Of a stretch of DNA of 64,000 nucleotides, positions 11,023 to 36,597 are shown in pieces (the first letter of the stretch is position 1; every line of letters begins with the position of its first letter). Both the position numbers and the translations under genes were made by a program. The stretch lies in assembly GCA_017792365.1 (NCBI GenBank), contig CP051229.1, positions 1 through 64,000 of the forward strand, read 5' to 3'. The notes under the pieces were generated by a model. It was not told the DNA's origin and did not search any database. It was given only the letters and a program-made list of their open reading frames with translations. This stretch comes from Hyphomonas sp. Its GTDB lineage: Bacteria; Pseudomonadota; Alphaproteobacteria; Caulobacterales; Hyphomonadaceae.

Positions 11023-11079
11023 GCCATATCTCCAACAGTTGAGCCCGGTTGCAACCTGCAACCACGCCCCCGCTGTCGG

Positions 11080-11258
11080 GATGGCCTGAGAGATTCGCGC
11101 ATCTCCACTCGGAAGCTGCGTTTACTCCTTCGGCGGCGGGAGGGATCCCGCGCTTTCCAGCGTTTACTTCACTTCTCGCGGTCCCTGGTGCCTGAGCGTT
11201 TCCGGGGCGGTTGCGCCTTCGGCGGCGGCCAGAACCTTGGACCGCACTCTCCCGCGAG
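11080..11258 (-). promoter_or_regulatory. Tandem glycine riboswitch
   Basis: On the minus strand two glycine aptamers follow each other. The first (about 11258-11180) begins CGCGGGAGAG and ends near CTCAGGCACCAGG. The second (about 11165-11080) contains GCCGCCGAAGGAGTAAACGC and ends with ATCTCTCAGGCC. Both carry the gcvT-RNA landmarks: GGGAGA-type P1/P2 start, CCGAAGG loop and CTCAGG. It sits between a good promoter and gcvT, with about 55 bases from the second aptamer to the start codon. In known members glycine binding turns expression on. Confidence 0.88.
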
Positions 11259-11265
11259 TAAGTAC

Positions 11266-11294
11266 ACTATACCTCATTGGTCTGCCGGAGCTAA
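11266..11294 (-). promoter_or_regulatory. Promoter of the gcv operon
   Basis: Minus-strand TATAGT (11271-11266) preceded by TTAGCT (11294-11289) at 17-base spacing. Transcription would begin near 11259, exactly at the first base of the riboswitch P1 stem, which supports both calls. Confidence 0.5.
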
Positions 11295-11318
11295 CGCCCC
11301 GGCGTCAATGGGCTGTCC

Positions 11319-12281
11319 TCAAATACCCTTGAGCCAATCCAGCAGCAACGCCGTTACCTCAGCCGGGCGTTCCTGCTGGGTCCAGTGACCGCAACCCTCA
11401 AGCACATGGTAGCCGCGCAAGTCCGTCACGTGCTGGCGCATGCGCGATTCGACGTCGCGCCCCATCATCTTGGTGCCCATGTCGCGGTCGCCGGTGATGA
11501 AGAGTGCGGGCTGGTCGATCGTGACGCCCTCGAACTGCTCCTGCCATTCGAAGTCGCGACGGTGATTGCGGTAGCGGTTGATCGGGCCGCGGAACCCCGA
11601 GGCCTCGAACTCTGCGACCAGATAATCGATATCTTCGCTCGTCAGCCAGGCGGGGAACGGGTCGGGGTCGGTAAGGCCCTCGAGCAACGGCGCGCCATGC
11701 TTCTTGTCGACCGGCCAGGAACCGGGCTCGGCGTCGCCAGATATCGAATAGTAGATCTTGCGCAGGGCGATGCGCATGTCGGCCTCGACCTCGGCTTCGA
11801 CGACGCCCTCGTCCTGGAAGTAAATCTGATAGAAAAACAGCCCTCTATCGGTGAACAGCTCGCGGGCGATGTCGATGAACGGTTTCCGGCCGCGACCCAT
11901 GAAGGGGATCGACAGCCCGGCGACCGCCTTGAACCGTCCGGGGTCTGAGAGGGCGGAGTTCCAGACGATTGGCGCGCCCCAGTCGTGACCGATCAGGATG
12001 GCTTCGCCGCCCCCAAGCATGTCAGCGACCGCCTGCACGTCGCCCACGATGGTTTCCATCGTGTAGGCCTCGATCTCGTGAGGCTTGGACGAGCCGCCAT
12101 ACCCGCGCACGTCGATGGCGGCGGCAGTGTACCCGGCGGCCGCGATCGGCCCCATCTGGTGACGCCACGAGTACCAGCTCTCGGGCCAGCCATGGACCAT
12201 CAGGACCAGGGGACCTTCGCCCTCAACGGCGGCCCGGATGGAACAGCCATTGGCGTCTATCATTTCAAAGCGGCGCGACAT
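11319..12281 (-). CDS. Alpha/beta hydrolase, epoxide hydrolase family
   Basis: About 320 residues with epoxide-hydrolase architecture. The oxyanion motif HGWPESW starts at H30, the nucleophile is D100 in GHDWGAPI, a cap domain with two candidate Tyr residues follows, and the C-terminal His is in [10 protein letters not shown]. It opens epoxide rings to diols; haloalkane dehalogenase is less likely because the HGxP and cap pattern favour epoxide hydrolase. ATG at 12281 (MSRRFEM) begins the domain. Divergent from panD. Confidence 0.85.
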
Positions 12282-12504
12282 GGTGGGCCTCCCGATGGTC
12301 AGGACGCGTACGCGCTTGACGTGCGCGGCGCCCAAATTCAGTGCGTACAAGCCAGCGCTTTACGCAGCTATGCCACCTCGCTATACCCCGGCGGCCTGCT
12401 TTTCGCATGTGCAATATCTTTACTGCGGGGAAACCACGCCCCACATATCAGTGGCTGGATTTTCCGGCGCGAACTTGCCGGTAACGGCGCTTTGGAGGGG
12501 ATGG

Positions 12505-12864
12505 ATGTTCCTCACCATGATGAAGGGCAAGCTCCATCGTGGAGCTGTCACACAGTGCGATCTGCACTATGAGGGCTCGGTTTCCATCGATCAGGATCTG
12601 TTGGAGGCGGCGAATATCCTGCCGCACGAGCGGGTCGATATTTGGAACATCACCAACGGTGCGCGCATCACCACCTATGCGATCGAAGCGCCCCGGGGAT
12701 CGAAAACCATTGGCGTCAACGGCGCGGCGGCCCGCCATTTCCAGTTGGGCGATCGCGTCATCATCGCTGCCTGGGCGCAGATGGATGAGCAGTCGGCCAA
12801 GCAGCACGCCCCGGACGTCGTGATGCTGAACGACCGCAATGAGCAGGTCAGCGGCGTCAACTGA
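12505..12864 (+). CDS. panD: Aspartate 1-decarboxylase precursor
   Basis: Makes beta-alanine for pantothenate and CoA. 119 residues. Self-cleavage occurs between G24 and S25 in HYEGSVSID, giving the pyruvoyl group on the alpha chain. With ATG at 12505, preceded by TTTGGAGGGG, the cleavage serine falls exactly at the canonical position 25. K9, R12 and Y22-type active-site positions (GKLHR, HYEG) and NGAAAR (autocatalysis region) are present. Stands alone; panB and panC are not in the window. Confidence 0.96.
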
Positions 12865-12885
12865 CGCCGCCCACCCAACGACCAG

Positions 12886-13635
12886 CTACTGAACCAGTTC
12901 GAACGTCACGTTGACGTCGACCGCGAGCGAGACTTCGCCGCGCGCGATCGGCATGGCGTCGTTCTGGACCGACTCCATCCGCGCCATCATCGGCATCGGG
13001 GGCGAGTAGCTGGTGTTCTCGCTGATGGTGACGATGCGCGCCACGCGATAGCCGGCGGCCTCGGCATAAAGGTCGGCCTTGCGGCGAGCATCGCTCATGG
13101 CCGAGACGCGCGCCTGATCGAGCGCATCGCTCGGATCGTCGACGCTGAACTGCACCGAATTGATCTGGTTTGAACCCGCCTTCACAATGGCGTCCAGCGC
13201 TGCGCCGAGATTGTCGAGGTCGCGCACGTTGATGGTGATCTGGTTCGACGCGTTATAGCCGCGCAGGCGGGGGCGACCGTCGTCCCGGCTGTAGTCGTAG
13301 ACCGGATTCAGCGAGAGGCTGCTCGTCTGCATGTCGCGGTCGGCAATCCCGGCGGCGCGCACGGCGGCAAACACTGCATTCATTCGTTCGGATTGCTGCT
13401 GCATCGCGTCTGCGGCGGTGTCGGCCTCGATCGTAACGCCGACGTTCACACTGGCCATGTCCGGTTCGCGATTCACCTCGCCATGGCCTGTCAGGGAAAT
13501 CGTGGTCTCGGGCTGGATGCCGTTCATGGAGTGTCCCATCGAGTTTGACTGGGCGTAGGCGGGCTGCGTCTGCGCTGTGCTGGCGCAGGCGGCGGCGAGA
13601 AGCAGGGCGCAGAGTGCGCCGGCGGTGCGAGTCAT
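12886..13635 (-). CDS. SIMPL domain (DUF541) exported protein
   Basis: Periplasmic protein of 249 residues with an N-terminal signal (LCALLLAAACAST; the Cys could also be a lipobox). The SIMPL/DUF541 domain spans roughly residues 45-245, with the typical SLTGHGEVNREPDMA opening and repeated ADLYAEAAG segment. Function of the family is uncertain (oxidative-stress and Bp26-like proteins belong here). Convergent with panD. Confidence 0.85.
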   Translation of the reverse strand: MTRTAGALCALLLAAACASTAQTQPAYAQSNSMGHSMNGIQPETTISLTGHGEVNREPDMASVNVGVTIEADTAADAMQQQSERMNAVFAAVRAAGIADRDMQTSSLSLNPVYDYSRDDGRPRLRGYNASNQITINVRDLDNLGAALDAIVKAGSNQINSVQFSVDDPSDALDQARVSAMSDARRKADLYAEAAGYRVARIVTISENTSYSPPMPMMARMESVQNDAMPIARGEVSLAVDVNVTFELVQ

Positions 13636-13796
13636 AGGATCGTCCTTTCCTGAGTCCTGCGCGCCAGATCGCGCTGTGATTGCGGCGGCGAAATGGCGCT
13701 TGCGCGAAATCTCAGTGGGGCCAACGTATTGTCTCCGCTGACGTTCCTGATGGGGGATTTCGCCCCGCCCAAATATGCGTATGGTGCGCCCGCTTC

Positions 13797-13872
13797 GGGC
13801 CAGTAGCTCAATGGTTAGAGCCGACCGCTCATAACGGTCTGGTTGGGGGTTCGAGTCCCTCCTGGCCCACCA
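13797..13872 (+). tRNA. tRNA with CAT anticodon, probably tRNA-Ile2
   Basis: Complete 76-nt cloverleaf with encoded CCA. Acceptor GGGCCAG/CTGGCCC, anticodon stem GACCG/CGGTC, anticodon CAT, T-arm GGGGG.TTCGAGT.CCCTC-like. The TAGCTCAATGGTTAGAGC D-arm resembles bacterial tRNA-Ile2, whose C34 is converted to lysidine by TilS. An elongator tRNA-Met is the alternative. Its 3' half is antisense to the tail of the hydrolase gene on the other strand. Confidence 0.9.
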
Positions 13873-15226
13873 TGTTCGCAGCGTTTAGCGCCGCCCTCAG
13901 GACATCGCCTACGCCTGCTTCCCTTGACCAGGTCGAGGTTTCTCCCAGCCGGACAACGACGACATCTGCGGATGGAATGGCGGCGACCAGTTGCCCGTCG
14001 TGTCCGGACAGGAACATGGCGTCTGCGGGGACACCGTCCATCGGCGGATCATCGCCAGCAGGGTCGCTGCGGTTCAACCAGAGCTGTGCGCCGTACTGAC
14101 CTTCCGAGCGGCCATTGTCGGTCGCCATGAAGGCGATCCAGTCGGCGGGAACGATCTGGCGCCCGTCGGGCGCCCGTCCCTGATTGTTGAGCAGCATGCC
14201 GATGCGCGCCCAGTCCTGCGCACTCAAGTAGCCGAACGAGGAGCCGACGAAGTCTCCGGCCGAATCCGCTTCCATGACAGCGGTCGAGACGCCGATTGGC
14301 GCGAACAGCTCGGATTGCATGAACTCCGCCCAGGAGCGGCCGTGCTGGTCGAGCGTATTGCGGGCGATCCGCGCCAGGATGTTTGTCGTGCCGCTGGAAT
14401 AGGACCAGTGGACTCCGGGCTCATGCGCGAGCGGGGCGTCCGCGGCCCGCGCCGCTGCGGACCGTTCAGTAAACAGCATCTGGACGACATCGCTTTGGAG
14501 ATCGCCATAGCTCTCGTCGAAGCCAAGCCCTGAGGTCATCGTCATCAGATGCCGGAGGGTGATCTGCGCGCGCGGATCGTCGGCGGATGACCATTCCTCG
14601 ACTGGCGCGGGCGCATCGAGCTCGAGCCAGCCGCGTTCGACGAGCATGCCGATCACGAGGCCCGTCAGCGTCTTGTTCATCGACCATCCCTTGAGCGCGG
14701 TCTGCTGGTCGACGCCGTCCGCATAGCGCTCCGCGATGACCTGGCCGTCGTGCACAACGACAATCGCCCGCGTCTGGGCCGGGCCGCCGTTGATCGGCCC
14801 CTCGAAGGCGGCGTTGATCGCCGCATCGAGGTCTGCGTCGGCGACGGCCGGCGCAGCTTTCGCGGGCAAAGGTTGAAAGGACTGTGCGTTACCGACGGAT
14901 GAGACCGGATCCGGTTCGCCGCCAGCGAGGAGGGTGCAGCCGGTTTCGGGGCGATAGACCGCGGTGCTGGCGCCCAGTCCGTATATGGAGGCGCGAACCG
15001 CTTTCTCGTCTTCATCTACCCGGTAGCCGACGAGCCCCATCGCTGAATCGATCGGTTCGACCTCTTCGGCAAATACGCGGTCTGCATCCATGCCGGAGAC
15101 AAACACGCCGGAGCAGACGGCTTTGGCGGAGTACGCCGATCCGACCTTGGCCAGCGGTGACAGTTGCCAGACGGCCACTATGGCCGCTGCGACCACCAGT
15201 CCAACTACCCCGATCACCCACTTCAT
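13829..15226 (-). CDS. Beta-lactamase-fold serine hydrolase, membrane-anchored
   Basis: 465 residues: N-terminal membrane anchor (residues 4-20), a linker of about 110 residues, then a class C beta-lactamase/PBP-like domain. The SxxK motif is S182-M-N-K185, the second motif is the YSS in HWSYSSGT, and a C-terminal HDGQ stands where HxG/KTG is expected. Likely an esterase or D-amino-peptidase-like enzyme, not necessarily a beta-lactamase. The last 14 residues (MVGQEGLEPPTRPL) are encoded on the reverse of the tRNA gene, so the natural end probably lay near 13872 and the stop has been lost or misread. Confidence 0.8.
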   Translation of the reverse strand: MKWVIGVVGLVVAAAIVAVWQLSPLAKVGSAYSAKAVCSGVFVSGMDADRVFAEEVEPIDSAMGLVGYRVDEDEKAVRASIYGLGASTAVYRPETGCTLLAGGEPDPVSSVGNAQSFQPLPAKAAPAVADADLDAAINAAFEGPINGGPAQTRAIVVVHDGQVIAERYADGVDQQTALKGWSMNKTLTGLVIGMLVERGWLELDAPAPVEEWSSADDPRAQITLRHLMTMTSGLGFDESYGDLQSDVVQMLFTERSAAARAADAPLAHEPGVHWSYSSGTTNILARIARNTLDQHGRSWAEFMQSELFAPIGVSTAVMEADSAGDFVGSSFGYLSAQDWARIGMLLNNQGRAPDGRQIVPADWIAFMATDNGRSEGQYGAQLWLNRSDPAGDDPPMDGVPADAMFLSGHDGQLVAAIPSADVVVVRLGETSTWSREAGVGDVLRAALNAANMVGQEGLEPPTRPL

Positions 15227-15406
15227 CGGCGCCTCCCATCCGTTGCCGCCATCCTAGAGGCCAAAGCGGGATAGACTAGTCCGATTGCGACCAATGGATG
15301 ACTTGCCGCCGGGTTAGTCGCCAGTCAGACTTTGGCGGAGTTTGGGAGTGGCGCGGCCCGGGACCTGCATCGCCGTGTCAATTGACGGAGAGTTGCGCGG
15401 GCGCGA

Positions 15407-15898
15407 ATGAGCAAGCTGCTGCAAATCATGATCCTGGCGGCGTCGCTGAGCGGCGCAGCGGCCAGTTCTGCGTCGGCGGACGCATGGGATGAGCCGAGCG
15501 ACACATGTCCGGCGGGCGCCGTCTCGGTGTATTTCGCGCCGAGCGAGATTCTGGCCTCAAATGAGACGGTCGAGCTGATTGGCCGTGTTGGCGGCCTCGC
15601 CTCGGCCTGTGAGGCGGAAGGCGTCGACGTCGTGGCGTGGGTCGACCCGGCTGAGGGTCAGTCCGGCATGTTCCTAGCGCTGGAGCGCTTGAAACTCGTG
15701 TCCCGGCAGCTCGTGGAGAGCGGCGTCAACGCAGCGCGCATGCGGGTCGCCGCGAGGGTGCAATCGGATGGCGAGATGGGCGGACCCGCCGCCCGCAACG
15801 TCCGCATCATCCTACGGGAAGGCGCAAGCGTTAAGCGCGCCGACAATCCGCCGCCTTTGGCGCCGACGCGTCCAACCCTGCCGCCGAACGCAGTCTAG
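15407..15898 (+). CDS. Exported protein with OmpA-like fold pattern
   Basis: 163 residues with a clear signal peptide (cleavage near ASA-DAW, residues 22-26). The mature part shows a beta-alpha-beta-alpha-beta rhythm (VSVYFAPSEIL, LIGRVGGLASAC, VDVVAWVD, LERLKLVSRQLVESGV) like the OmpA C-terminal domain, but the peptidoglycan-binding Asp/Arg pair is not obvious. Proline-rich tail. I do not recognise a named family. GCGCGAATG context gives a weak ribosome site. Confidence 0.65.
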   Translation: MSKLLQIMILAASLSGAAASSASADAWDEPSDTCPAGAVSVYFAPSEILASNETVELIGRVGGLASACEAEGVDVVAWVDPAEGQSGMFLALERLKLVSRQLVESGVNAARMRVAARVQSDGEMGGPAARNVRIILREGASVKRADNPPPLAPTRPTLPPNAV

Positions 15899-15903
15899 CG
15901 GAT

Positions 15904-16707
15904 CTAGTCCAGACTTGCCGGTCCGCCGCTTGGCAGGCGTGCGTAAGCCAGTCCGCCATCCACCGCGATCGTGTCGCCGACGACATAATTGCCCGCCCGC
16001 GACGCGAGGTAGATCGCGCAGCCGGCCATGTCTTCATCGACGCCAATCCGGCGCGAGGGCGTGAGGGCGGCGACGCCCTCTGCGTTGTCGCGCGCCGCGC
16101 GGTTCATCTCCGATCCGAACGGCCCCGGCGCGATGCCGGTGACGACGATGTTGTCCTGCACCAAGCGGGCGGCCATGCGGCGGGTGAGGTAAATCAGGCC
16201 CGACTTTGAGGCGTGGTAGGAATAAGTCTCGAGCGGGTTCAGCGTGATCCCGTCGATCGAGCAGATGTTGATGACTTTCGAGGGCTGGTCGGCCGACGCC
16301 GCGTTGGCGAGGGGGCCGTGCAGCGCCTGCGTCAGGAAGAAGGGGGACTTGATGTTGAGATTCATCACCTTGTCCCAGCCGTGCTCCGGAAACTCGTCGA
16401 AGTCGGCGGCCCATGCGGCCCCTGCATTGTTGACGAGGATGTCGAGCTTGCCGCCGGTTTTCTCGGCGACCTTGCCGGCGAGTTCCTGACAACCTGCGAC
16501 CGTCGAGACATCCTGCGGCAGCGGGATGCATTCGCCGTATTTCGAAAGTTCGGCGGCGGTTTCCTCGCAGGCCTCGGCCTTGCGTGAGGAGATGTAGACC
16601 TTCGCGCCAGACTCCAGAAAGCCCTGCGTGATCATCTTGCCGATGCCGCGCGAACCGCCGGTGACGAGGGCGGTGCGGCCTTTGAGGCTGAAGAGGTTCT
16701 CGATCAT
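15904..16707 (-). CDS. Short-chain dehydrogenase/reductase
   Basis: 267-residue classical SDR. Cofactor motif TGGSRGIG begins near residue 16, then NNAG, catalytic Ser in ICSIDG and YxxxK in YSYHASKSG. The end (GDTIAVDGGLAYA) is typical. Close relatives often act on 3-oxoacyl or steroid/terpenoid-like CoA intermediates, and its position next to acyl-CoA dehydrogenase genes suits a degradative role. Substrate unknown. Confidence 0.9.
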   Translation of the reverse strand: MIENLFSLKGRTALVTGGSRGIGKMITQGFLESGAKVYISSRKAEACEETAAELSKYGECIPLPQDVSTVAGCQELAGKVAEKTGGKLDILVNNAGAAWAADFDEFPEHGWDKVMNLNIKSPFFLTQALHGPLANAASADQPSKVINICSIDGITLNPLETYSYHASKSGLIYLTRRMAARLVQDNIVVTGIAPGPFGSEMNRAARDNAEGVAALTPSRRIGVDEDMAGCAIYLASRAGNYVVGDTIAVDGGLAYARLPSGGPASLD

Positions 16708-16755
16708 TGTTGCATTCTACCCAGGTTGTTCGTCTGCGCTGTGTTCTGGAGGGGA

Positions 16756-17895
16756 TCAGTACCCGTTGAGGCGCGCGTACCGGTCGCGGTGGAAACTTTC
16801 GCCGCCGTATAGCGCTTCAAGCACGGTCGAGCGCTTCATGTAGAGGCCAGAGTCGTGTTCGTCGGTCATGCCGATTCCGCCGTGCATCTGCACGCACTCG
16901 CGGCTGACGAGGTGAAGCGTTTCCCCGGCGCGCGCCTTTGCGAGCGAGGCCTTCTCGGCGGCGTCGTTGGCTTTGTCGTCGAGCGCCGACAGCGCCGCGG
17001 CGACGCACGAGCGGGTGAGCTCAAGTTCGGTGAACATGATTGCGGCGCGGTGTTGCAGGCCCTGGAAGGAGCCGATGAGCTGGCCGAACTGCTTGCGCGT
17101 CTTGAGATAGTCGTTGGTCATCTCGAACGCGGCGTCCGCGGCGCCGAGCATCTCGGCGGCAACGCCGATGCGGGCGCGGTCGAGAATGCTGTCCAGCAGT
17201 TCGAAGCCGCCATCGATGGAGCCCAGCACCGCGTCCGCGCCGACTTGGACGCCATCGAATGCGATGTTCGCGGCGGCGTGGGCATCAAGCGTGGTGAGCG
17301 CTGTGCGCTTTAGGCCCTTGGCGTCGGCCGCGACGAGAAAGAGGGTGAGACCGCCTTCATCGCCGACGCTGCCGGACGTGCGAGCGGCGACGATCAACAG
17401 ACCAGCTTCGGCGCCATCGACCACGTAGCGCTTCTCGCCGGTCAGCTTGAAGCCGTCGCCAGACTTTTCCGCCTTGAGCGAGATCAGCGCCGGGTCGTGG
17501 TGAGGCGTATCGTCGACAGCAAGAGCGGTAATGAGTTCGCCGGCGGCGATCTTTGGCAGGTATTCCGACTTCTGGGCGTCCGAGCCGGCGAGATTGAGCG
17601 CGGATGCGCCGATCATCGCGGTTGAAAGGAGCGGGGTCGCGGCCAGCGTCCGGCCCTGCGCCTCAAGAACCTGGCCGAGGCCGACATGACCGAAATCAGA
17701 ACCGCCGTGCGCCTCGCTGATCAGGACGCCGGCAAAGCCGAGTTCGGCCATTTCCTTCCAGGAAGCCTGATCGTGCCCGGTGGCGGCGCCTGCCTTGCGC
17801 AGGGCGCGGAGCTGCGTGACGGGGAGTTTTTCCGAAGCGAATGAGAACGCGCTGTCGCGCAACATCTGCTGCTCTTCGCTTAGAACAAACGCCAT
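16756..17895 (-). CDS. Acyl-CoA dehydrogenase, small-subunit (PimD-like)
   Basis: 379-residue flavoenzyme that desaturates acyl-CoA thioesters. Start ATG at 17895 (MAFVLSEEQQML) is the family start. FAD/substrate region RKQFGQLIGSFQGLQH and C-terminal CVQMHGGIGMTDEHD are visible. The second acyl-CoA dehydrogenase gene in this cluster resembles the large subunit of PimCD-type heteromeric enzymes, so the two may form one enzyme. Same strand as the SDR and the isomerase-like gene. Confidence 0.88.
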   Translation of the reverse strand: MAFVLSEEQQMLRDSAFSFASEKLPVTQLRALRKAGAATGHDQASWKEMAELGFAGVLISEAHGGSDFGHVGLGQVLEAQGRTLAATPLLSTAMIGASALNLAGSDAQKSEYLPKIAAGELITALAVDDTPHHDPALISLKAEKSGDGFKLTGEKRYVVDGAEAGLLIVAARTSGSVGDEGGLTLFLVAADAKGLKRTALTTLDAHAAANIAFDGVQVGADAVLGSIDGGFELLDSILDRARIGVAAEMLGAADAAFEMTNDYLKTRKQFGQLIGSFQGLQHRAAIMFTELELTRSCVAAALSALDDKANDAAEKASLAKARAGETLHLVSRECVQMHGGIGMTDEHDSGLYMKRSTVLEALYGGESFHRDRYARLNGY

Positions 17896-17921
17896 GGCGC
17901 GACTCCCCGTACCGGTTCTTT

Positions 17922-18539
17922 TTACTTCTGTTCCGGCGGTCTTAGCGTCCCGTTCACGGTCCAAGCAAGTGCGTCTTCAAGCCGATCGTCTCCCCAGAAC
18001 AATTCGCCGTCTGGCGCAATCAGAGATGGCGCGCCGAAAATGCCGAATTCGGCGGCTGTCTGGGTCTCTTCCCGCAACTGGGACTTGATCTCGCTCTCGT
18101 TCGCCGCGCTCAGAAAGGCGTCTGCGTCGAGACTGGCGGACATCAGGCAATCGTGCACCGTTTCCGGGTCCGAGATGTCGCGGCCGTCGACGAAGTTCGC
18201 GCGGTAGATGCACTTTGCGAAGGCGGCGCGCGAGACCTGGGGCACCGTCAGCGTTGTCCGCGCCGCGAGCACGCTGTTCTGCGGAAAGGTCGCCGGCCTG
18301 TTGAGTGGCAGGCCGTGTTTCTCGCAGACCCGGGCGAGGTCGCGCCACATGTAGGCGCCTTTCTGCGGCACGATGTTGAACGGGCTGTCGCTCATGCCCT
18401 GCTGCGACTTGAACAGTGGACCCAGCAGGAAGGGACGCCATTCGACTTCGATCCCGTACGGTCGCGCGCAGTCCTCGATCCGCATGGCGCAGGGGTAGGA
18501 ATAGGTCGAACCGTATTCGAACCAGAACTGGAGCTTCAC
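17922..18539 (-). CDS. DsbA-family / 2-hydroxychromene-2-carboxylate isomerase-like protein
   Basis: About 205 residues. The opening FWFEYGSTYSY with a Ser in the glutathione-binding position and the lack of a CxxC motif mark it as an HCCA-isomerase/kappa-GST-like thioredoxin fold. The later FGIFGAPSLIAP is the cis-proline loop. In other bacteria such proteins isomerise aromatic breakdown products with glutathione. GTG at 18539 is the most likely start; longer readings lack similarity. It is 26 bases upstream of the acyl-CoA dehydrogenase on the same strand. Confidence 0.8.
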   Translation of the reverse strand: MKLQFWFEYGSTYSYPCAMRIEDCARPYGIEVEWRPFLLGPLFKSQQGMSDSPFNIVPQKGAYMWRDLARVCEKHGLPLNRPATFPQNSVLAARTTLTVPQVSRAAFAKCIYRANFVDGRDISDPETVHDCLMSASLDADAFLSAANESEIKSQLREETQTAAEFGIFGAPSLIAPDGELFWGDDRLEDALAWTVNGTLRPPEQK

Positions 18540-18610
18540 GATGGCGGCGTCCCGACTTGCGCGTTGAATCTGAACATGCAGAGACTTGGGGCCTCTAGCA
18601 GGAGGACAAG

Positions 18611-19131
18611 ATGATGCGCCAAATGCTCTGGATGTCGACCGCTGCTGTCGCACTGGCCGGACAGGCCCTCGCCCAGACAAGTCCCGCCCCATGTCAGGAC
18701 CCTGAATACCGTCACTTCGACTTCTGGCTTGGCGAATGGGAGGTGACGCAGGTTGGCGGCGCCGCGGATGGGCAGGTCGCCGGCACGAACGCGATCAGCA
18801 GCGAGGAGGCGGGATGCCTGATCGTGGAGCGATGGACCAACGCAGGCGGCGGCACTGGGCAGAGCTACAACTTCTATGATCCCGGCACGCAAGAGTGGCG
18901 ACAGATCTGGGTCTCGCCCGGCGCGGTGATCGACTATGCCGGCGGCCTGAACGGCGAGGGGGAAATGGTGCTGGAAGGCGAGATCCGCAATCACGGCGGG
19001 CCCACCGCACCATTCCGCGGCGTGTGGACGCCGAACGCCGATGGCAGCGTGCTGCAGCACTTCGAGCAGTATGACGAGGCGACCGACGCCTGGCAGACCG
19101 GTTCACCGGTTTGTATCGCCGCAAGGACTAG
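18611..19131 (+). CDS. Exported DUF1579-like protein, frameshifted near the end
   Basis: Signal peptide (residues 1-21, AQA-like cleavage) followed by HFDFWLGEWEVTQ, the opening of a widespread family of small secreted proteins. After DAWQT (about 19098) the frame changes: the alternative frame gives FTGLYRRKD and TAG at 19131, which is how this family normally ends. One base appears missing in CAGACCGGTT. The literal reading instead runs on through the next gene, which is clearly artificial. Whole protein about 173 residues; function unknown. Confidence 0.7.
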
Positions 19132-19199
19132 CAGCCGGTGTCATCCGCCAGCCGGCTCGCTAGGGTTGGCGGTCTGTACAGACCAGGGAGAGCTGGGAA

Positions 19200-19907
19200 A
19201 TGTCATACCTCGACGGCGCGGCGCTTGTATTCTTTCTCGCCGCGTGGGGCGCGCTGAACTGGCTGGTCGACGTCTCCAAATGGCGGCTTCAAACGCTGAG
19301 TCATGCGATGAACGAACACCGCCGGCACTGGATGCAGGTGATGTCGACACGCTCCAACCGGATTGCCGATACCAACGTCATCAACGGGCTGCAGCAGTCG
19401 AATTCCTTCTTCGCATCTACCGCGCTCTTGGCGGTGGGCGCCGGCTTCGGCCTGCTGACAGCGGCAGACACGATCATCAACGCATTCGAGCAGTCGTTCG
19501 TGCACGTCGTGATCGACCGCTCGGCCTTCTATGTGAAGGTGGGGCTGCTGATGGCGCTGTACGCCTATGCCTTCTTCAAGTTCGGCTGGGCGTACCGGCT
19601 GTACAATTACTCGGGCATCATGTTGATCGCGACGCCGGATGAAGACCTTGGCAGCCGCGAACAGATCGCCGCGCGCGCCGCCGAAATGAACATCGAGGCC
19701 GCCGGGCAGTTCGCCCATGGCCTTCGCGCGTTCTTCCTTGCGATCCCCGTTCTCGCCTGGTTCGTGAGCGCCTGGACATTTGCGCTGGCGACACTGCTGG
19801 TGATCGCTGCGCTATTGAATCGCCAGTTCCGTTCACGCGCACGCAGGATGGCGCGCAGCTCCGCCCGGCTCTACGCGCAGGCGTCCGACGATCGGGCTGC
19901 CGGATAG
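19200..19907 (+). CDS. DUF599 family inner-membrane protein
   Basis: 235 residues with four predicted transmembrane segments (about residues 5-22, 70-90, 105-130, 185-215) and a cytoplasmic arginine-rich tail. The MNEHRRHWM and NGLQQSNSFFAST motifs are those of DUF599 proteins. Function of the family is unknown. ATG follows AGCTGGGAA. Confidence 0.85.
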   Translation: MSYLDGAALVFFLAAWGALNWLVDVSKWRLQTLSHAMNEHRRHWMQVMSTRSNRIADTNVINGLQQSNSFFASTALLAVGAGFGLLTAADTIINAFEQSFVHVVIDRSAFYVKVGLLMALYAYAFFKFGWAYRLYNYSGIMLIATPDEDLGSREQIAARAAEMNIEAAGQFAHGLRAFFLAIPVLAWFVSAWTFALATLLVIAALLNRQFRSRARRMARSSARLYAQASDDRAAG

Positions 19908-19929
19908 CGCCTGCCAGCGGCAATCGAAA

Positions 19930-21123
19930 CTACTGGTGGTCGCGCAGTCCGAGAACGCGCTTGGCGACGACGTTGAGATTGATCTCTGAGGTGCCGCCTT
20001 CGATCGAGTTGCCCTTGGCGCGCAGCATTGCGCGGGTCGAGGCAATCTCGCCGGGCTTGAACCCTTCGCCTTCCCAGCCAAGCGCCTGAAGGCCGAGCGC
20101 CTCGACCTGCAGCTCGGTTTTTTCCTTGTTCATCGTGGCGGCGGCGTATTTGACGATTGAGGTGGCCGGGCCGACATCGCCGCCCGCCTTGGCCTGCGCC
20201 TCGTTGCGCTGGATCGTCAGGTTGAAGGCGTCGGAATACATTTCGTTCTTTGTGATGCGCGCGCGCAGGTCGGTGTCCGCCAGCACGCCGTGCTTCACGC
20301 CGACATACTTCTTGGCGACTTCTGGCAGGGAAAGCCCGGCGCTGCGGTCGGAGCCAAAGCCGGTCTTCGAGATGTTGATGCGCTCGTACTGGAGCAGGCG
20401 CTTGGCGATCTCCCAGCCCTTGCCCGGTTCGCCCACGAGATTGCCTTTGGGGACCTTCACGTCGGTGAAGAAGGTTTCGCAGAACGGGGATGAGCCGGAG
20501 ATCAGCAGGATCGGCTTTGGCTCGACGCCCGGCGTCTGCATGTCGAACAGGATGAAGGAGATGCCTTCGTGCTTCTTCGAGGTGTCCGTGCGGACGAGGC
20601 AGAATATCCAGTCGGCCTTGTCGGCGTAGGAGGTCCAGATCTTCTGGCCGTTGATCAGCCAGTGATCGCCCTTGTCCTCGCATTTCGTCTGCAGACCGGC
20701 GAGGTCGGAACCAGCGCCGGGTTCGGAATAGCCCTGGCACCACCGGATTTCGCCGCGGCAGATCTTCGGCAGGTGCTCCTTCTTTTGCTCTTCGTTGGCG
20801 TATTCCAGCAGGACCGGGCCGAGCATCCACAGGCCGAACGAGGCGAGTGGCGGGCGCGCCTTGATGGCCTTGAGCTCCTGCTCGAGGACCATGTTCTCTT
20901 CCTTGGACAGGCCGCCGCCGCCGTATTCCTTCGGCCAAATCGGCGCGGTCCAGCCCTTCTCGGCCATCCGGTCGAGCCAGAGTTTGGACTCGGGGTTCTT
21001 GAATTTTTCGCCGCGGCCGCCCCAGACGACTTCGTCCTCGACCATCGGGGTGCGCATCGACGGCGGGCAATTGGCCTCGAGCCATGCGCGGGTTTCGGTC
21101 CGGAAGGTTTCGAGATCGGCCAT
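19930..21123 (-). CDS. Acyl-CoA dehydrogenase, large-subunit (PimC-like)
   Basis: 397 residues. Family landmarks are GWTAPIWPKEYGG, the flavin region GYSEPGAGSDLA, the IWTSYA block and C-terminal IEGGTSEINLN. Together with the smaller acyl-CoA dehydrogenase at 16756 it looks like the large partner of a two-subunit enzyme acting on dicarboxyl- or ring-derived CoA esters. ATG at 21123 starts MADLETFRTETRAWL, the usual N-terminus. Confidence 0.9.
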   Translation of the reverse strand: MADLETFRTETRAWLEANCPPSMRTPMVEDEVVWGGRGEKFKNPESKLWLDRMAEKGWTAPIWPKEYGGGGLSKEENMVLEQELKAIKARPPLASFGLWMLGPVLLEYANEEQKKEHLPKICRGEIRWCQGYSEPGAGSDLAGLQTKCEDKGDHWLINGQKIWTSYADKADWIFCLVRTDTSKKHEGISFILFDMQTPGVEPKPILLISGSSPFCETFFTDVKVPKGNLVGEPGKGWEIAKRLLQYERINISKTGFGSDRSAGLSLPEVAKKYVGVKHGVLADTDLRARITKNEMYSDAFNLTIQRNEAQAKAGGDVGPATSIVKYAAATMNKEKTELQVEALGLQALGWEGEGFKPGEIASTRAMLRAKGNSIEGGTSEINLNVVAKRVLGLRDHQ

Positions 21124-28431: not shown

Positions 28432-28488
28432 ATGGGATGTGCGGGACCGGCATGGGCGGGCTGCGGTCGGATCTGTCCTTGGGACTGG

Positions 28489-28508
28489 ATCCCGGCTTTC
28501 GCCGGGAT
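28489..28508. repeat. Short palindrome, REP-like
   Basis: ATCCCGGC-TTTC-GCCGGGAT, a perfect 8-bp stem with a 4-base loop, just beyond the 3' end of the methyltransferase-like gene. The same core (CCGGCTTTTGCCCGG) recurs near 34272, suggesting a dispersed family. Confidence 0.5.
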
Positions 28509-28544
28509 GAGCGGGGGCAGCAGGGGCGGAATGAGCGGGCGGCG

Positions 28545-29331: not shown

Positions 29332-31551
<2,220 letters not shown>

Positions 31552-32191
31552 GGGCAGCCGCCGTCAGCCCCACGTACATGAAGTTGAACCGGCCTCAGTG
31601 GGCGCGATGGGTGGTCTCGTAGCAACGCCGTTTCGAGCAGCACGCAATATTCGTAGCGATCTAGTAGGCCGGCGCGAGTAAGGTTCTCCTCAATCGACGC
31701 TCTTAGTGGGGTGTTTTCAATGGCCATTAGGGTGCGGTTGCTGGATTGCAGCAGCTGCGCTGGGCGACCGGTTTGATAGAGTTCTGAGTCGCGCACTGAG
31801 GGGGCGTCGTTCAGCCGTTCTCTTCCAAGGACAACGACAATAATCACGGCATCTGGCAGATATTGCTGTGCTAGTTCAGCCAAAGCACGGCCACGCTCAA
31901 GGCTCCGGATGTATCCAGCGCCTGACAGGTCGTCCGCAGAAGCTGTACCTATCGCAACGATATACTGTGGAGAATCTATGCCGGGTAGCCAGCAGCTACG
32001 GCTGGGCAGGACGAACGACCGAGTGGATCGATAGGACCAAAACACTTCGGTGCCAGCCAGATCGGCGACGCAGGTCAGTGGAAGCTCCTCGAGAACCGTC
32101 TCTGTAGCGATTACGGGCGGCTCAAAACGACGCTTCGGCGAGTCCGGAACAAATATCGTCGCGGGTACTGTGACGGGTCGCGCTGACCAAG

Positions 32192-33520
32192 CTACAAGCA
32201 TGCCGACAAATCCGGAAAATCCAAAATGCAAGCCGCCGAAACAAAGGCGAGGAGTCTATACGAGGCTGGGATTGTGGCGATGATGCTTTGGGTCGTGCGT
32301 GCTGTTCTGGAGCCGACCCGCCGCAGTTCCGAAATTAAGACCGCTTGGTCCGGCACGTCCGGTTCTCGTGTTTTGGGCGTCTCTTCATCGGATGCTGAGT
32401 CAAATAGCCGCCGAAGCATGTTTCGGAGGCTGGTGAGGGCGGAACGAGCTGGGTTTCTCTTGTGGAGCCAATACGACAGCATCATCCCCGCACCGCCCCA
32501 TGCGATGGGCGGCCAAGGTGCCGGTTTGGCTAGATCAGCCCAAAAGTGGACTGACCTTGTTACGTTGGCCCACAGATCCCCGAGAAAGCTGCAGATCCAA
32601 CCAAGCCCGGCTTGTCCAATACCTACGAGAAAATCTAGGGCGACAGATAATCCAGTGAACAGACCGATCGAAAGAAACGAGAGGAGCGCCGCTCCCAGTG
32701 CGATCAGAGCCGCGCGCTTTATTATTCGTAGCGCAAACGAGCTTAGGCTTAGTCGGATCGGGGAAGAATTGGCGACGCTTTTCGTGCCGACGATAACCAA
32801 AATGGCTGTCAAGACGATGAGGGCAAAGAATTCGGCGAGGATTATTCGCCGCCAGAGCGCCGGATCGGTGGTCGCATGATTAGCCATGGGAACCGGCTGA
32901 GCCATTCCGCTCCAGCCAGTATTTGAGAGAAAACTCCAACTAAGGAGCAGGCTTGCCACAATCAGCAAGTGCAGCGGATCGATTAGGCGGTGCCGGGTTC
33001 GACCTATATCCAGCTGTCTAACGGATATGGCGGAGTAGATGACGCCGAGCAAGGCAACCAGCGAACCAGCTGCGACGATGCACGCATACGTGGGTAGTGT
33101 TTTGTCGCTCAGCCCCTCGGGTCCTACTGCGAGTCCAAGCAGTGTTGAGTCCGCAAATCGGAACACATCGGACGTCGAGTTCGCAAATAGGGTACCGACA
33201 GACCTTTCAAGCGAGTCCGCAAAGGCCGTCAACGACAATCCAAATGCGGTGAAACTTGCTGCAGTCGCTCTATCAAGCTTCGTTTGAAGCGCGGCATCTG
33301 AAATAGCGGTCGCGATCGGTGGAAAACCAACAGCAACAACTACGAGAGCGCCCCATTGGCCATCGGAAAACTCGACTCCTAGCGTGAGCGGGGCTGCAGC
33401 TTTGAACAACTCGACGAAGATCAGTGCGCCGAGCATCGCAGCCACGATGAAAGCCGAGTTGTCGTGTAGTACCGCGCTCGAAAGACCTCGCGGCCCGTTG
33501 TTCAGTCTTCCGAACTCCAC
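32192..33520 (-). CDS. Unknown multi-helix membrane protein
   Basis: 442 residues with about eight or nine transmembrane segments: near residues 22-45, 53-72, 135-158, 170-186, 212-232, 252-300 (two), 318-335, and a last one at the C-terminus. A charged cytoplasmic loop (residues about 340-410, many Arg and Glu) precedes the final helix. No family recognised. Its last helix merges smoothly with the first helix of the overlapping downstream gene if the frame is changed, so the two could be a single protein of about 700 residues. Base composition (32 G+C of 60 at 32701-32760) is well below uvrB (40 of 60 at 30001-30060). Confidence 0.7.
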   Translation of the reverse strand: MEFGRLNNGPRGLSSAVLHDNSAFIVAAMLGALIFVELFKAAAPLTLGVEFSDGQWGALVVVAVGFPPIATAISDAALQTKLDRATAASFTAFGLSLTAFADSLERSVGTLFANSTSDVFRFADSTLLGLAVGPEGLSDKTLPTYACIVAAGSLVALLGVIYSAISVRQLDIGRTRHRLIDPLHLLIVASLLLSWSFLSNTGWSGMAQPVPMANHATTDPALWRRIILAEFFALIVLTAILVIVGTKSVANSSPIRLSLSSFALRIIKRAALIALGAALLSFLSIGLFTGLSVALDFLVGIGQAGLGWICSFLGDLWANVTRSVHFWADLAKPAPWPPIAWGGAGMMLSYWLHKRNPARSALTSLRNMLRRLFDSASDEETPKTREPDVPDQAVLISELRRVGSRTARTTQSIIATIPASYRLLAFVSAACILDFPDLSACL

Positions 33521-33585
33521 TTCGGCAGCCCCCTGCTTGCCCGTATCCCACAGAGAACTTGAGAGTCGAGGAATAAGGAAGCTGA

Positions 33586-33603
33586 GAATCTAAGTTAGGA
33601 TTC
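33586..33603. promoter_or_regulatory. Imperfect palindrome before the HEPN-like gene
   Basis: GAATCTAAGTTAGGATTC: GAATC/GATTC ends plus TAA/TTA inside. It lies between the divergent start codons, eight bases before the ribosome site AGGAG of the HEPN-like gene, a usual place for an operator. Confidence 0.3.
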
Positions 33604-33621
33604 ATCCTTCAGGAGAAAACC

Positions 33622-34131
33622 ATGGCGAAGAACATCGAAGACAGCGCCGCCGTATACTTGCAAATGTTTCTCTATTTTGCGGCATTCGAGAAGGCGCTGA
33701 AGGCTGCCCGATTCCTTGCTGATAAGAGCAAGCCTGTAGTGGATTGGGACGGTTTTTCAGGGGATGTCGGCGATGAATTCTTTAGAACCGTCAGCAGCAA
33801 GCAGCCCGTAGAATGGCTCGTAGAGTCACCGCCGAAAAAGTTCGAGGCAGTCAGGATTGGTAACGGCCAAAGGGTCTTGCGACCGAACCCGGTGGCGGAG
33901 ACGATTGAATCCACCATTACCCTCATTGAAGCGGTGCGGACGATCCGAAACAATCTTCTACACGGTGACAAATTTGCGGAGAATCCAGAGCGCGACGTCA
34001 GGCTAACCGAAGCGGCGGTATTTGTGCTCCAGGAGTTGAAGGCACACTTGAGGCAACATCCTCGGCTTTCGCACATTGCTCACGACGTCGAACAGATTGA
34101 GGTGTCGTTTCCCTTGGCGCTTGGCCCATAA
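33622..34131 (+). CDS. HEPN-like protein
   Basis: 169 residues, all alpha. The segment IEAVRTIRNNLLHGDKF carries R-x4-H (RNNLLH), the signature of HEPN nucleases, within helices typical of Apea/DUF4145-like HEPN proteins. In such proteins the Arg and His form the RNase site; some HEPN domains are inactive. GGAG-type ribosome site (AGGAGAAAACC) precedes the ATG. Base composition is near 50 percent G+C (30 of 60 at 33601-33660, 28 of 60 at 33901-33960), unlike neighbours. It is divergent from the unknown membrane genes, with about 100 bases between. Confidence 0.65.
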   Translation: MAKNIEDSAAVYLQMFLYFAAFEKALKAARFLADKSKPVVDWDGFSGDVGDEFFRTVSSKQPVEWLVESPPKKFEAVRIGNGQRVLRPNPVAETIESTITLIEAVRTIRNNLLHGDKFAENPERDVRLTEAAVFVLQELKAHLRQHPRLSHIAHDVEQIEVSFPLALGP

Positions 34132-34368
34132 GGCCAAGTGTCGCTTGAGCATAGCCCCAACTTATCCCCCGCCTCCCAACCCGCGCGACAACGTCCTCTG
34201 CTCTAGATGAGAGGAGGCGGGCGGGCGGGGTATCGGGCGGTTGGCGACCGGATGGTGCAGGCGCTGGTTCCCGGCTTTTGCCCGGATGAGCGGGCGTGGC
34301 GGGATGAGCGGGCGTGGGGATAGGGTGCGAATTATCCCCCACCTCTCGACCCGTCGTAATCTCCCGGC
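34132..34368. repeat. Repeat-rich spacer
   Basis: No gene. Two copies of TTATCCCCC(G/A)CC at 34162-34173 and 34332-34343 (a third, inverted, at 28285-28296). A 16-base direct repeat GGATGAGCGGGCGTGG occurs at 34284-34299 and 34302-34317, and a CCGGCTTTTGCCCGG hairpin near 34272 matches the 28489 element. Confidence 0.5.
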
Positions 34369-35163
34369 ATGGGACACTGGAGATCACAGAGACAATGGGC
34401 GGAGGCTCGGCGTGATGCGGAGGCTCTGATCCGTGAGGGACATTCGGTGAGCGATGTGGCGCGCACGCTGGATGTGGACCGCTCGACCATCGGGCGGTGG
34501 ATGGCGATTGGCGGCTTTCGGCTGAAGGACCTGGAGCGGGAGGAGGCGGGCGAGCCGCCTCTGGCGCGGCCCGACTGGCTGCAGCGCGAGCAGTTTCGCA
34601 AGGCGTCGAAGGGCGCGCTGCCTGCGGAATACGCCGAGCGGGTGGCGTCGGCGCAGGAGGCGCTGGCGGCGGCTGCGAAGGAGCGCGTGGCGCTGTTGCG
34701 GGAGAACGGGGGGAAGCTGGCGGTTCCGGAGGTCGACGCGGAGGCGTTCGCCAAGCGCGCCGTGGCCGAGGCGGAGCGGCTGATGGGGGAAGGGCTGTAT
34801 GACCTTGCCGAGCGCTCGATGCGGATCGCGGAGCGGCTGGCGCGGGTGAAGGGGCTGCTGGGGCCTGGCGCCGGGATAGCGGGCGGAGATGCGCGCCGGG
34901 ATGCGGAGAAGGCGGCGGAGACTGACGCGTTTGCAGCGCGTCGCCGGGCCGAGCAGGAGGCGGTGCGGAAGCGGCTTGGGAATGGGAGGCCGATGACCCC
35001 GCAGGACCTCGCGCGCTCGCTGGGCAGGACGATGGTGGCGCGGGGATGGCTGGATGAAGACCTGATCGGTCATCCCGACGGGGTGAGGCTGACGCAGGAG
35101 CGGAGGGCTGCGCGGGAGGCTGGGGCGGAGGAGGCGGGGCTGGAGCAGGCGGGGTCAGAGTAG
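34369..35163 (+). CDS. Helix-turn-helix protein of unknown function
   Basis: 264 residues. The N-terminus (residues 10-45) contains a resolvase/homeodomain-like HTH: LIREGHSVSDVARTLDVDRSTIGRWM. The rest is highly charged and helical (long Ala/Glu/Arg stretches, probable coiled coil to about residue 200), ending in an Ala/Glu-rich tail. The pattern resembles small proteins that pair HTH with a coiled coil, such as phage terminase small subunits, but no phage gene is nearby. Flanked on both sides by repeat-rich spacers. Confidence 0.6.
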   Translation: MGHWRSQRQWAEARRDAEALIREGHSVSDVARTLDVDRSTIGRWMAIGGFRLKDLEREEAGEPPLARPDWLQREQFRKASKGALPAEYAERVASAQEALAAAAKERVALLRENGGKLAVPEVDAEAFAKRAVAEAERLMGEGLYDLAERSMRIAERLARVKGLLGPGAGIAGGDARRDAEKAAETDAFAARRRAEQEAVRKRLGNGRPMTPQDLARSLGRTMVARGWLDEDLIGHPDGVRLTQERRAAREAGAEEAGLEQAGSE

Positions 35164-35657
35164 GTGGGCGGAGGACGGGCCCCCTCCGTCGCTTCGCGAC
35201 ACCTCCCCCCATGAATGGGTGGAGGACTCGGTACGTGGCGAGACCTCCTCCACCGCTTCCGCGGGGAGAAGCCTGCTACGCAGGCTGGCTGGGCCCCCGC
35301 CTACGCGGGGGACGCGGTGAATGATGGGTCACCGTCGGGTTCAGGTGATAGCGGGGCGGGAGTCGGCGGGACCAGAGTAGGTCGGGCGAGACTCAGCTTC
35401 CGAGTTCCCCGCGCAGGCGGGGATCCGGTCAGGACGCGGGAGCGTCCTTTGGGGCCGACGACGTGGGGGTGGGCGGCGATGAGAAGCCTGCTGCGCAGGC
35501 TGGCCGGGCCCCCGCCTTCGCGGGGGACGCGGTGGAAGTGTGGCGTTGTCCGGTTCAGGTGATAGCGGGGTCAGAGTGGGCGGGGGACGCGGTGGAGGGC
35601 GTTTCGCTCTGGGTTTCTGGTGATAGCTTGGCCGGCGAGGCAAGGGAGGACGAGGAC
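35164..35657. repeat. Degenerate duplicated repeat block
   Basis: No gene. A unit of about 92 bases at 35266-35357 (starting GAGAAGCCTGCT, containing the GCCTGCTACGCAGGC and CCCCCGCCTACGCGGGGG hairpins and ending GGTGATAGCGGGG) recurs at 35481-35571. A partial third copy (GGGGGACGCGGTGGA to GGTGATAGC) lies at about 35581-35633. Further CCCCGCGCAGGCGGGG palindromes sit between them. Confidence 0.6.
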
Positions 35658-36074
35658 ATGAGCGTGACGGCTGGGGCGGCGACGCCGGAGATCATTCGCA
35701 AGTGGCACCGCGTGGCGCTGGAGCGGCGGGCGGACGAGATCGGCGCGCTGCTGGCCGAGGACGTGGTGTTCGAAAGTCCGGTGGTGCACACGCCGCAGGT
35801 CGGCCGGGCGCGGGCGGAGGGGTATCTGCGCGGGGCGCTGGCCGTGCTGAACGGGCCGGACTTCGCCTATCGCGAGGAATGGTATGGGGCGAACTCGGCG
35901 GTGCTGGAGTTCGAGACGAAGATCGGGGAGATCAGGATCAACGGCGTCGATATCGTGCGGTGGAACGATGAGGGGCTGATCACCGGCTTTCGCGTGATGC
36001 TGCGGCCGCTGAAGGCGATCCAGACCGTGCACGCCGCGATGGGCGCGTGGCTGGCCGAGCATGCGCCGGGGTAG
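35658..36074 (+). CDS. SnoaL/NTF2-like fold protein
   Basis: 138 residues with the cone-shaped NTF2-like pattern: an N-terminal helix (IIRKWHRVALERRADEIGALLAEDVVFESPVV) and four long strands (GEIRINGVDIVRWNDEGLITGFRVMLRP). Such proteins act as isomerases, hydratases or binding proteins; no substrate clue. ATG at 35658 has GAGGA upstream; the longer reading runs through repeats and is not credible. Confidence 0.75.
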   Translation: MSVTAGAATPEIIRKWHRVALERRADEIGALLAEDVVFESPVVHTPQVGRARAEGYLRGALAVLNGPDFAYREEWYGANSAVLEFETKIGEIRINGVDIVRWNDEGLITGFRVMLRPLKAIQTVHAAMGAWLAEHAPG

Positions 36075-36080
36075 GGCCGG

Positions 36081-36389
36081 CTAGTTCGTGCCGAGGCGGT
36101 TGTTGAAGCGGTCGTTCGGCGTCTTGCCGAGTTCGTCGAAGAGACGCTGGGTGTCTTCGCTGGTGGCGGCTTCGTAGCGGTCCCAGGATTCCGGCGAGGC
36201 GCAGACGCTGCGCGGGATGTTGGTGCCGGTGCCGGTCTCGCGGCGGCATTCGAGGCCCATTTCGGCGATCTGGGCGGGGGTGAGCTCGGTGCGCTCGCGG
36301 GCGACGCCGCTGGTCGCGGTGCAGGCCGAAACGAGCATCAGGCTGGCGGCGGCCAGGGCTGCGGGGGCGAAGGCGGAAGGGGCGCGCAT
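36081..36389 (-). CDS. Small lipoprotein, unknown
   Basis: 102 residues with a lipoprotein signal (LMLVSAC, Cys at about residue 23). The mature part has CRRETGTGTNIPRSVC, a two-cysteine segment typical of small Caulobacterales/Hyphomonadaceae lipoproteins, and a charged tail. Start at 36389 (MRAPSAF) gives a standard signal peptide. Convergent with the NTF2-like gene. Confidence 0.7.
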   Translation of the reverse strand: MRAPSAFAPAALAAASLMLVSACTATSGVARERTELTPAQIAEMGLECRRETGTGTNIPRSVCASPESWDRYEAATSEDTQRLFDELGKTPNDRFNNRLGTN

Positions 36390-36597
36390 GGCGTGTCCTC
36401 GATGGTCAGTGCTGCTGGCAGGTAAGCATGTTTTGCCCTGTTTTTCCAGATAACATGGCCGCAAACCCGCGTGAGGTGGGCGCTCTGACGCACATGGGTC
36501 CCGGGCCGGCGCACAGTCTGGACTTGGACTGGCCCCAGTACTGGCACGAGGGATGCTGAGGGGCTAGGAGACGTGAAACGCAACGTTCCGGCAGGGG

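Follow-up and report, generated by a model that had tools for sequence, protein, structure and literature searches.

A candidate HEPN ribonuclease effector of an unnamed family in a low-GC block downstream of uvrB in Hyphomonas sp.

The first 64,000 nucleotides of contig CP051229.1 of Hyphomonas sp. (assembly GCA_017792365.1), hereafter the window, include a block of low G+C content between uvrB and a high-GC gene, with three reading frames that we call A, B and C. We consider it fairly probable that gene C (169 residues; 33622..34131, forward strand) encodes an acquired, mobile HEPN ribonuclease (RNase) effector of the abortive-infection type, from a family without a name, and that the two genes next to it, B and A, are orphans, the latter probably decayed. 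The window itself is ordinary in this respect, with a small acquired gene of defence type lying beside orphans.

In the sections cited here of the HEPN survey by Anantharaman et al. (2013; PMC3710099), the HEPN motif is R-x4-6-H with a polar residue after the arginine (section 6), it sits at the end of a helix or the start of the following loop (section 7), many families carry an upstream E-x3-[KR], and RNase activity is predicted from motif conservation (section 6). Both elements are present in the open reading frame of C, as R109-N110-x3-H114, where N110 is the polar residue, and as the second, acidic residue in an upstream E-x3-[KR] (E23, with K27). When C was aligned with 81 of 96 candidate relatives (82 sequences in all, drawn from several phyla), E23, R109, N110, N111, L112, H114, G115, K117 and R124 were invariant, and K27 was kept in at least 90%. 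Relatives in the GTDB-set genomes and in IMG/VR were sought by a pattern around R-N-N..H-G, and because this pattern contained the motif, the invariance of the R109-N-N/H114 stretch is partly due to selection; E23, K27 and R124 lie outside the pattern. R109, N110, H114, K117, R124 and K27 had already been invariant in an earlier alignment of 14 C-family proteins, 13 of which had come from comparing whole proteins, and a loose E-x3-[KR] at least 50 residues before the motif was present at 118 of 119 C-family loci. A preliminary description of this DNA had noted the R-x4-H of HEPN RNases in C, read divergently from B, and C does carry it, at R109-H114.

The AlphaFold model of C (predicted local distance difference test, pLDDT, 91.4; predicted template modelling score, pTM, 0.87) has R109-H114 closing a core helix (98-113), which is followed by a loop and then by helix 122-144, with an ordered alpha/beta insert (32-88) after the first helix and before the motif helix. 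C is therefore like the HEPN endoRNases described in the cited sections of PMC3710099 in its Rx4H motif with a polar residue after the arginine, its upstream Ex3K, the position of the motif at a helix end, its largely helical model and the defence company of its family, but unlike them in matching no Pfam HEPN family (none at E ≤ 10 for C itself) and in having an alpha/beta insert between the first and the motif helix, and its RNase activity is a prediction. The KEN domain of IRE1 is counted there as a HEPN member, and, as in KEN, the helix of C with the acidic residue could be read first and helix-1 last, a shared topology that we infer from the model. In a second look at structural matches, IRE1 KEN appeared in rows 4, 5, 9 and 24, covering residues 9-162 at its widest, which is within noise, unrelated folds reaching Z 5.0.

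Links to HEPN models were weak. HEPN_Apea (Apea-like HEPN, PF18739) was matched weakly by 3 of the 82 C-family members (best E 3.3e-4) and not by C itself, which by that test is not a member; HEPN_Swt1 was matched by one of the 82, and the CARF-HEPN and Csx1 models of PADLOC by one or two members each. A sequence profile run against PDB found CRISPR-associated chains only (E 0.04-0.06). With no significant fold match and with profile links this weak, we base HEPN membership on the motif, on how well it is conserved and on where it lies in the model. The sole clear library match of C was PHROG 19013 (residues 13-139, E 2.7e-10), a phage family with no function given, as against the chromosomal C here. 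The family is not named in the parts sampled of four open-licence PMC papers (PMC3710099, PMC9122126, PMC10952713 and PMC12839542); the portion used of PMC3710099 mentions a family Bxe_C0808 "in operon with AbiU2", which might be the family of C.

Relatives of C were found at 224 places in GTDB-set genomes, 80 of which were retrieved, and also in 21 plasmid records, 4 E. coli phage records and 29 IMG/VR contigs. Close to home C is sparse, occurring in 3 of 105 genomes of the host family and in 4 of 398 genomes of the phylum (E ≤ 1e-5), its own included in both counts. In one E. coli phage record an annotated baseplate assembly protein follows two genes downstream of the C relative (L013:3917-4429), and five IMG/VR loci (L106, L111-L114) show a pattern of frame lengths much like it; a place near a baseplate gene is odd for an RNase of toxin type.

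Neighbouring genes were compared at 121 loci (L007-L127), of which two without a clear HEPN frame were dropped, leaving 119; the frame caller was simple and near-identical loci were kept separate in these counts. The gene before the C relative lay on the same strand at 99 of the 119 loci, no more than 150 bases away in 83 of these; it was divergent at 18, and none was found within the stretch at 2. When distinct HEPN proteins were counted once, the upstream neighbour was on the same strand for 89 of 109 and divergent for 18. PADLOC models matched one of the three genes upstream at 15 of 20 hand-picked loci, with best scores of 68.7-1158 bits, the tested neighbours being large genes one to three places upstream that were chosen for their size and on hints from earlier annotation and from tallies of families. 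The models matched were HerA (L022, L058), a type III methyltransferase (L051), HmaC (L068), IetS (L055, L076), GajA (L017, L062, L065), a IIG enzyme (L057), the candidate PDC-S71 (L018), a DISARM-type or type II methyltransferase (L073), prokaryotic Argonaute (pAgo; L048), a CBASS or SAVED nuclease (L025) and AbiJ (L009); the tested neighbours at L026, L033, L077, L093 and L095 had no PADLOC match at E ≤ 1e-8. Ten host proteins served as a control, after two randomly drawn frames that looked spurious had been replaced by uvrB and fbp. Three of them matched PADLOC, namely uvrB at 33 bits, a second protein at 42 bits and a UvrD-type helicase at 387 bits, so that one of ten exceeded 60 bits, a line drawn after the results were known; this helicase gene has a G+C of 67%, yet is set between two low-GC stretches. 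The defence company of the family is suggestive and, the neighbours having been selected, amounts to no unbiased enrichment.

Particular layouts recur among these loci. At L007 a GajB match stands directly before the HEPN gene and an AAA-family ATPase before that, and among 11 plasmid loci (12 of the 25 plasmid and phage records with C relatives were inspected) the annotated neighbours include two pairs of AAA ATPase and helicase as well as abortive-infection proteins. On Rhizobium and Paraburkholderia plasmids (L007:2-4423 and L017:106-4459) the C relative comes third, after an AAA ATPase and an ATP-dependent helicase. Two Roseovarius loci (L048:4412-6450 and L085:4391-6429) have a 525-residue frame that overlaps the following C relative by one base; at L048 this frame is the one with the prokaryotic Argonaute match, a possible Argonaute and HEPN pair. 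IetS-type genes lie two to three genes before C relatives at L055 and L076, where they matched the model, and genes of the same lengths as at L076 are found at L079 and L080, so that an Iet-type and HEPN layout appears to be repeated at these four loci. The genes that accompany the family of C are thus defence genes and not these two membrane-type genes, A and B. In the part used of PMC12839542, HEPN proteins that stand alone in BREX-type loci are described as backup suicide effectors, so that this kind of association between HEPN and defence genes is already known. C is like those BREX and BREX-related effectors in that they too are small HEPN proteins, found next to defence genes that target DNA and proposed to act in cell suicide; unlike them, it stands here without such neighbours, and the likeness is one of kind.

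From the motif, its invariance, the helical model and the company of the selected relatives, we infer RNase activity, triggering by infection and a role in defence for C. Other HEPN RNases act as dimers, and C would likewise fold as a helical HEPN domain and probably act as a dimer. The conserved R, N and H of its motif, together with the glutamate that lies upstream, would cut RNA without a metal once infection is sensed, and this cutting would stop translation and so abort the infection. The family would be an extra effector beside many phage-defence operons, and in many relatives the sensor would probably be the upstream operon (Gabija, HerA, restriction-modification (R-M), Hma, pAgo or CBASS). 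As C has no such operon here, it would act alone or under something not recognised.

A number of observations weigh against such an effector. C has no above-chance match in Pfam, NCBIfam or PADLOC, a Foldseek search with its model gave nothing at E ≤ 0.001 in PDB or BFVD, and the IRE1 rows in the second look, made with VIA-align, scored Z 2.1-3.1, below or tied with unrelated folds. Among the 14 Pfam families matched by any of the 82 relatives, 12 are non-HEPN, each matched by a single member (best E 0.0027), and non-HEPN PADLOC models reach E-values with C-family members similar to those of the HEPN models. The neighbours tested were not a random choice, L062 and L065 share one layout within one genus, several of the inspected plasmid loci have no clear defence gene, and the operon that precedes many relatives is missing upstream of C in the window. 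The presence of relatives in 29 IMG/VR contigs, and near a phage baseplate gene, makes a role outside host defence possible. For the neighbours of C, no relative of A was found on which its decay could be checked.

The low-GC block as a whole (31600..34131) comprises about 2.5 kb between the stop codon of uvrB (31551) and the high-GC gene at 34369. Its G+C of 55.5% (31601-34100) compares with a mean of 63.7% (standard deviation 2.0) in 720 overlapping 2.5-kb intervals, from 20 samples of 20 kb of the 3.4-Mb genome, 2 of the 720 being as low. This upholds the low-GC island that the preliminary description had seen between uvrB and the spacer after 34131. The 50-53% G+C quoted there was right in direction, the measured values being slightly higher at 53.3-57.8% per gene (A 57.8%, B 55.9%, C 53.3%, against 65.3% for uvrB). 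Third-position G+C was 0.56-0.62 in A, B and C compared with 0.90 in uvrB and 0.91 in fbp. A, B and C were all absent (E ≤ 1e-8) from the 6.6-7.7 kb after uvrB in seven relatives, which were taken from 40 returned for uvrB and of which none was labelled as the same genus among the matches listed; the gene at 34369 was weakly matched in one of them, and two genes close to the beginning of the window in another. Composition and this absence make the foreign-looking island sound as an observation, and the presence of C in only 2 of the 104 other genomes of the host family further supports acquisition. On this evidence the horizontal acquisition already suspected for the island is supported, and the block looks like a small horizontally acquired fragment.

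We rejected an integrative element: there was no tRNA in or near the block, no integrase was recognised among the frames listed for 28-38 kb, and no long direct repeat flanks the block, the longest direct pair between left and right sides being 15 nt at 87%. The gene that follows (34369-35163) has 71.7% G+C and an N-terminal helix-turn-helix weakly like those of terminase small subunits and transposases, and it opens a stretch of strong skew of G over C (34001-36500). The spacer after C holds short imperfect repeats (34162-34183 and 34332-34353), and another of its repeats, 34264-34294, recurs in short, imperfect form before uvrB at 28485-28515. Elsewhere in the same genome (L184; 1750001-1770000), further low-GC stretches, down to 52% per kb, lie at about 11000-14000 and 17000-20000 of that segment and flank a frame of 67% G+C (13999-16764) that strongly matches models of GajB and of a DRT-associated helicase.

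Gene B (33520-32192, reverse strand; 442 residues from a GTG start) is separated from C by a divergent intergenic region of 101 bases (33521..33621), in which a consensus scan gave no sigma-70-type site. One hydropathy scan found eight hydrophobic segments in B and another seven, and none of 300 random sequences with matched dinucleotide composition reached a stop-free run of 440 codons, in agreement with the multi-helix membrane protein originally described. B fell into no family of Pfam, PADLOC or NCBIfam, and its best match in PHROGs had E 0.62. At E ≤ 0.001 no relatives were found in the family's 104 other genomes or in 385 genomes of the class (own counted), nor did any turn up in a scan of genomes from 84,980 species (for close relatives only), in plasmids, in phages or in IMG/VR. 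At E ≤ 0.1 there were matches in 24 of 398 genomes of the phylum, its own included. The best (G648, E 6.7e-4, residues 268-347; the same gene in G545 at 0.0096) falls in an intact frame of 160-170 residues for a membrane protein, which we take to be DoxX-like; with 398 genomes searched, we read this match as a likeness of hydrophobic segments, although a remote relation of the segment is possible. Single-sequence structure prediction of B was uninformative (pLDDT 45). B is, as far as these searches reach, an orphan polytopic membrane protein with no convincing relatives.

Frame A (31404..32231, reverse strand) is also an orphan, could start at TTG 32231 or ATG 32201 and has a short hydrophobic N-terminus. 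Its beginning lies within the last part of B; lacking a stop of its own, it continues antisense for 148 bases of uvrB and ends at 31404. As 20 of 300 random sequences contained a stop-free run of at least 210 codons, about as long as the part of A beyond uvrB, it is not certain that A is coding at all. Pfam (E ≤ 10), PADLOC, NCBIfam and PHROGs held no match for it. The exported protein with an OmpA-like stretch that had been described here found no support. Against a profile of five OmpA domains from the same genome, hhalign gave A a probability of 0.14 on a scale of 0-100, and its best-domain score (-3.6) was below the ten best of 100 shuffles (-2.4 to -0.1); we accordingly reject an OmpA-like domain (PF00691), since there was no Pfam match and the score with this small profile was not above chance. 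In Zorya a transmembrane protein is paired with an OmpA partner, and a pair of this kind was rejected as well, because A fails the OmpA test made with the small profile and PADLOC has no model that either A or B matches. Relatives of A at E ≤ 0.001 were absent from the 104 other genomes of the family and from IMG/VR, its protein-level searches having covered these two sets and the phylum, and a search of plasmids with A as DNA gave none. In the phylum, 41 of 398 genomes (own included) had matches at E ≤ 0.1, and besides its own two reached 0.001, in G714 (2.1e-5, with six stops in frame) and in G715 (3.2e-4, residues 6-94), where the match covers the start of an intact 285-residue frame. Of 18 weak phylum places for A or B that were viewed (L194-L211), several had in-frame stops or lay in frames that look non-coding, and we take the weak phylum matches of both as probably due to chance. 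If the end of B is read on into the frame of A, the result is a single hydrophobic segment that is stronger (1.99) than either part by itself (1.66 and 1.26), so that A may be the end of B in a displaced frame, or else a remnant. Truncation or decay of a gene, or such a displacement, is the probable origin of A.

A conserved system of three genes was rejected. In the test that the preliminary description had proposed, co-conservation elsewhere, a match of A or B at E ≤ 0.1 was found at 0 of 126 retrieved loci with C relatives (part of those found), no convincing relatives of A or B are known from elsewhere in our searches, and PADLOC-DB 2023 gave no family for A, B or C at E ≤ 10. From the small defence system first supposed there remains a HEPN gene of a defence-associated family, without the three-gene unit. 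A narrower form of the idea, which we think decidedly unlikely, is a very rare defence module in which B (with A, split or in two parts) senses an envelope or infection signal or restrains C, and releases the divergently encoded RNase, much as proposed for membrane-coupled HEPN proteins. B and C are indeed divergent, 101 bases apart and alike in foreign composition, the frame of B is long and intact, and membrane-linked HEPN domains are described in section 15 of PMC3710099. The same 126 loci argue against it, as do the 18 divergent neighbours of C relatives, none of which has more than one hydrophobic segment, the finding of an adjacent gene with at least four such segments at only 4 of 119 loci, and the lack of an end of its own in A. 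Very unlikely in our view would be a new two-part immune module. In it B would detect phage attack at the envelope, with A either coupled to it or forming its outer end through a frameshift, and would control a HEPN RNase whose unnamed family may be permuted as in KEN; that family would more broadly be a general plug-in RNA-cutting effector common to Gabija, HerA, Hma, Iet, pAgo, CBASS and R-M systems.

If neighbours are left aside, C could be a self-contained HEPN abortive-infection or toxin gene without a partner, B and A being unrelated cargo at the same site after uvrB. Relatives in small plasmids and phages, the 18 of 119 loci at which the upstream neighbour is divergent and not on the same strand, and the joint absence of A, B and C after uvrB in seven relatives all fit this, but the same-strand frame within 150 bases upstream at 83 of 119 loci suggests partners for many relatives, and we hold the proposal to be unlikely. 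That C is instead a helical RNA- or DNA-binding protein and no active HEPN RNase, in an island without present function, would agree with the lack of a significant fold match and of any curated model matched by C; the invariance of the predicted catalytic residues in 82 sequences from several phyla argues for catalysis, which leaves this explanation extremely unlikely. We therefore favour an acquired RNase effector next to orphan neighbours, to the extent stated at the outset.

The interest of C lies in its family, a HEPN family that is not modelled in the copies of Pfam, NCBIfam and PADLOC searched and whose members turn up repeatedly near defence operons of many unrelated kinds. If they do act as backup RNase effectors, they would constitute a last line of defence that those operons share and that goes unnoticed when genomes are annotated with these libraries, and a profile for the family would directly improve such annotation.

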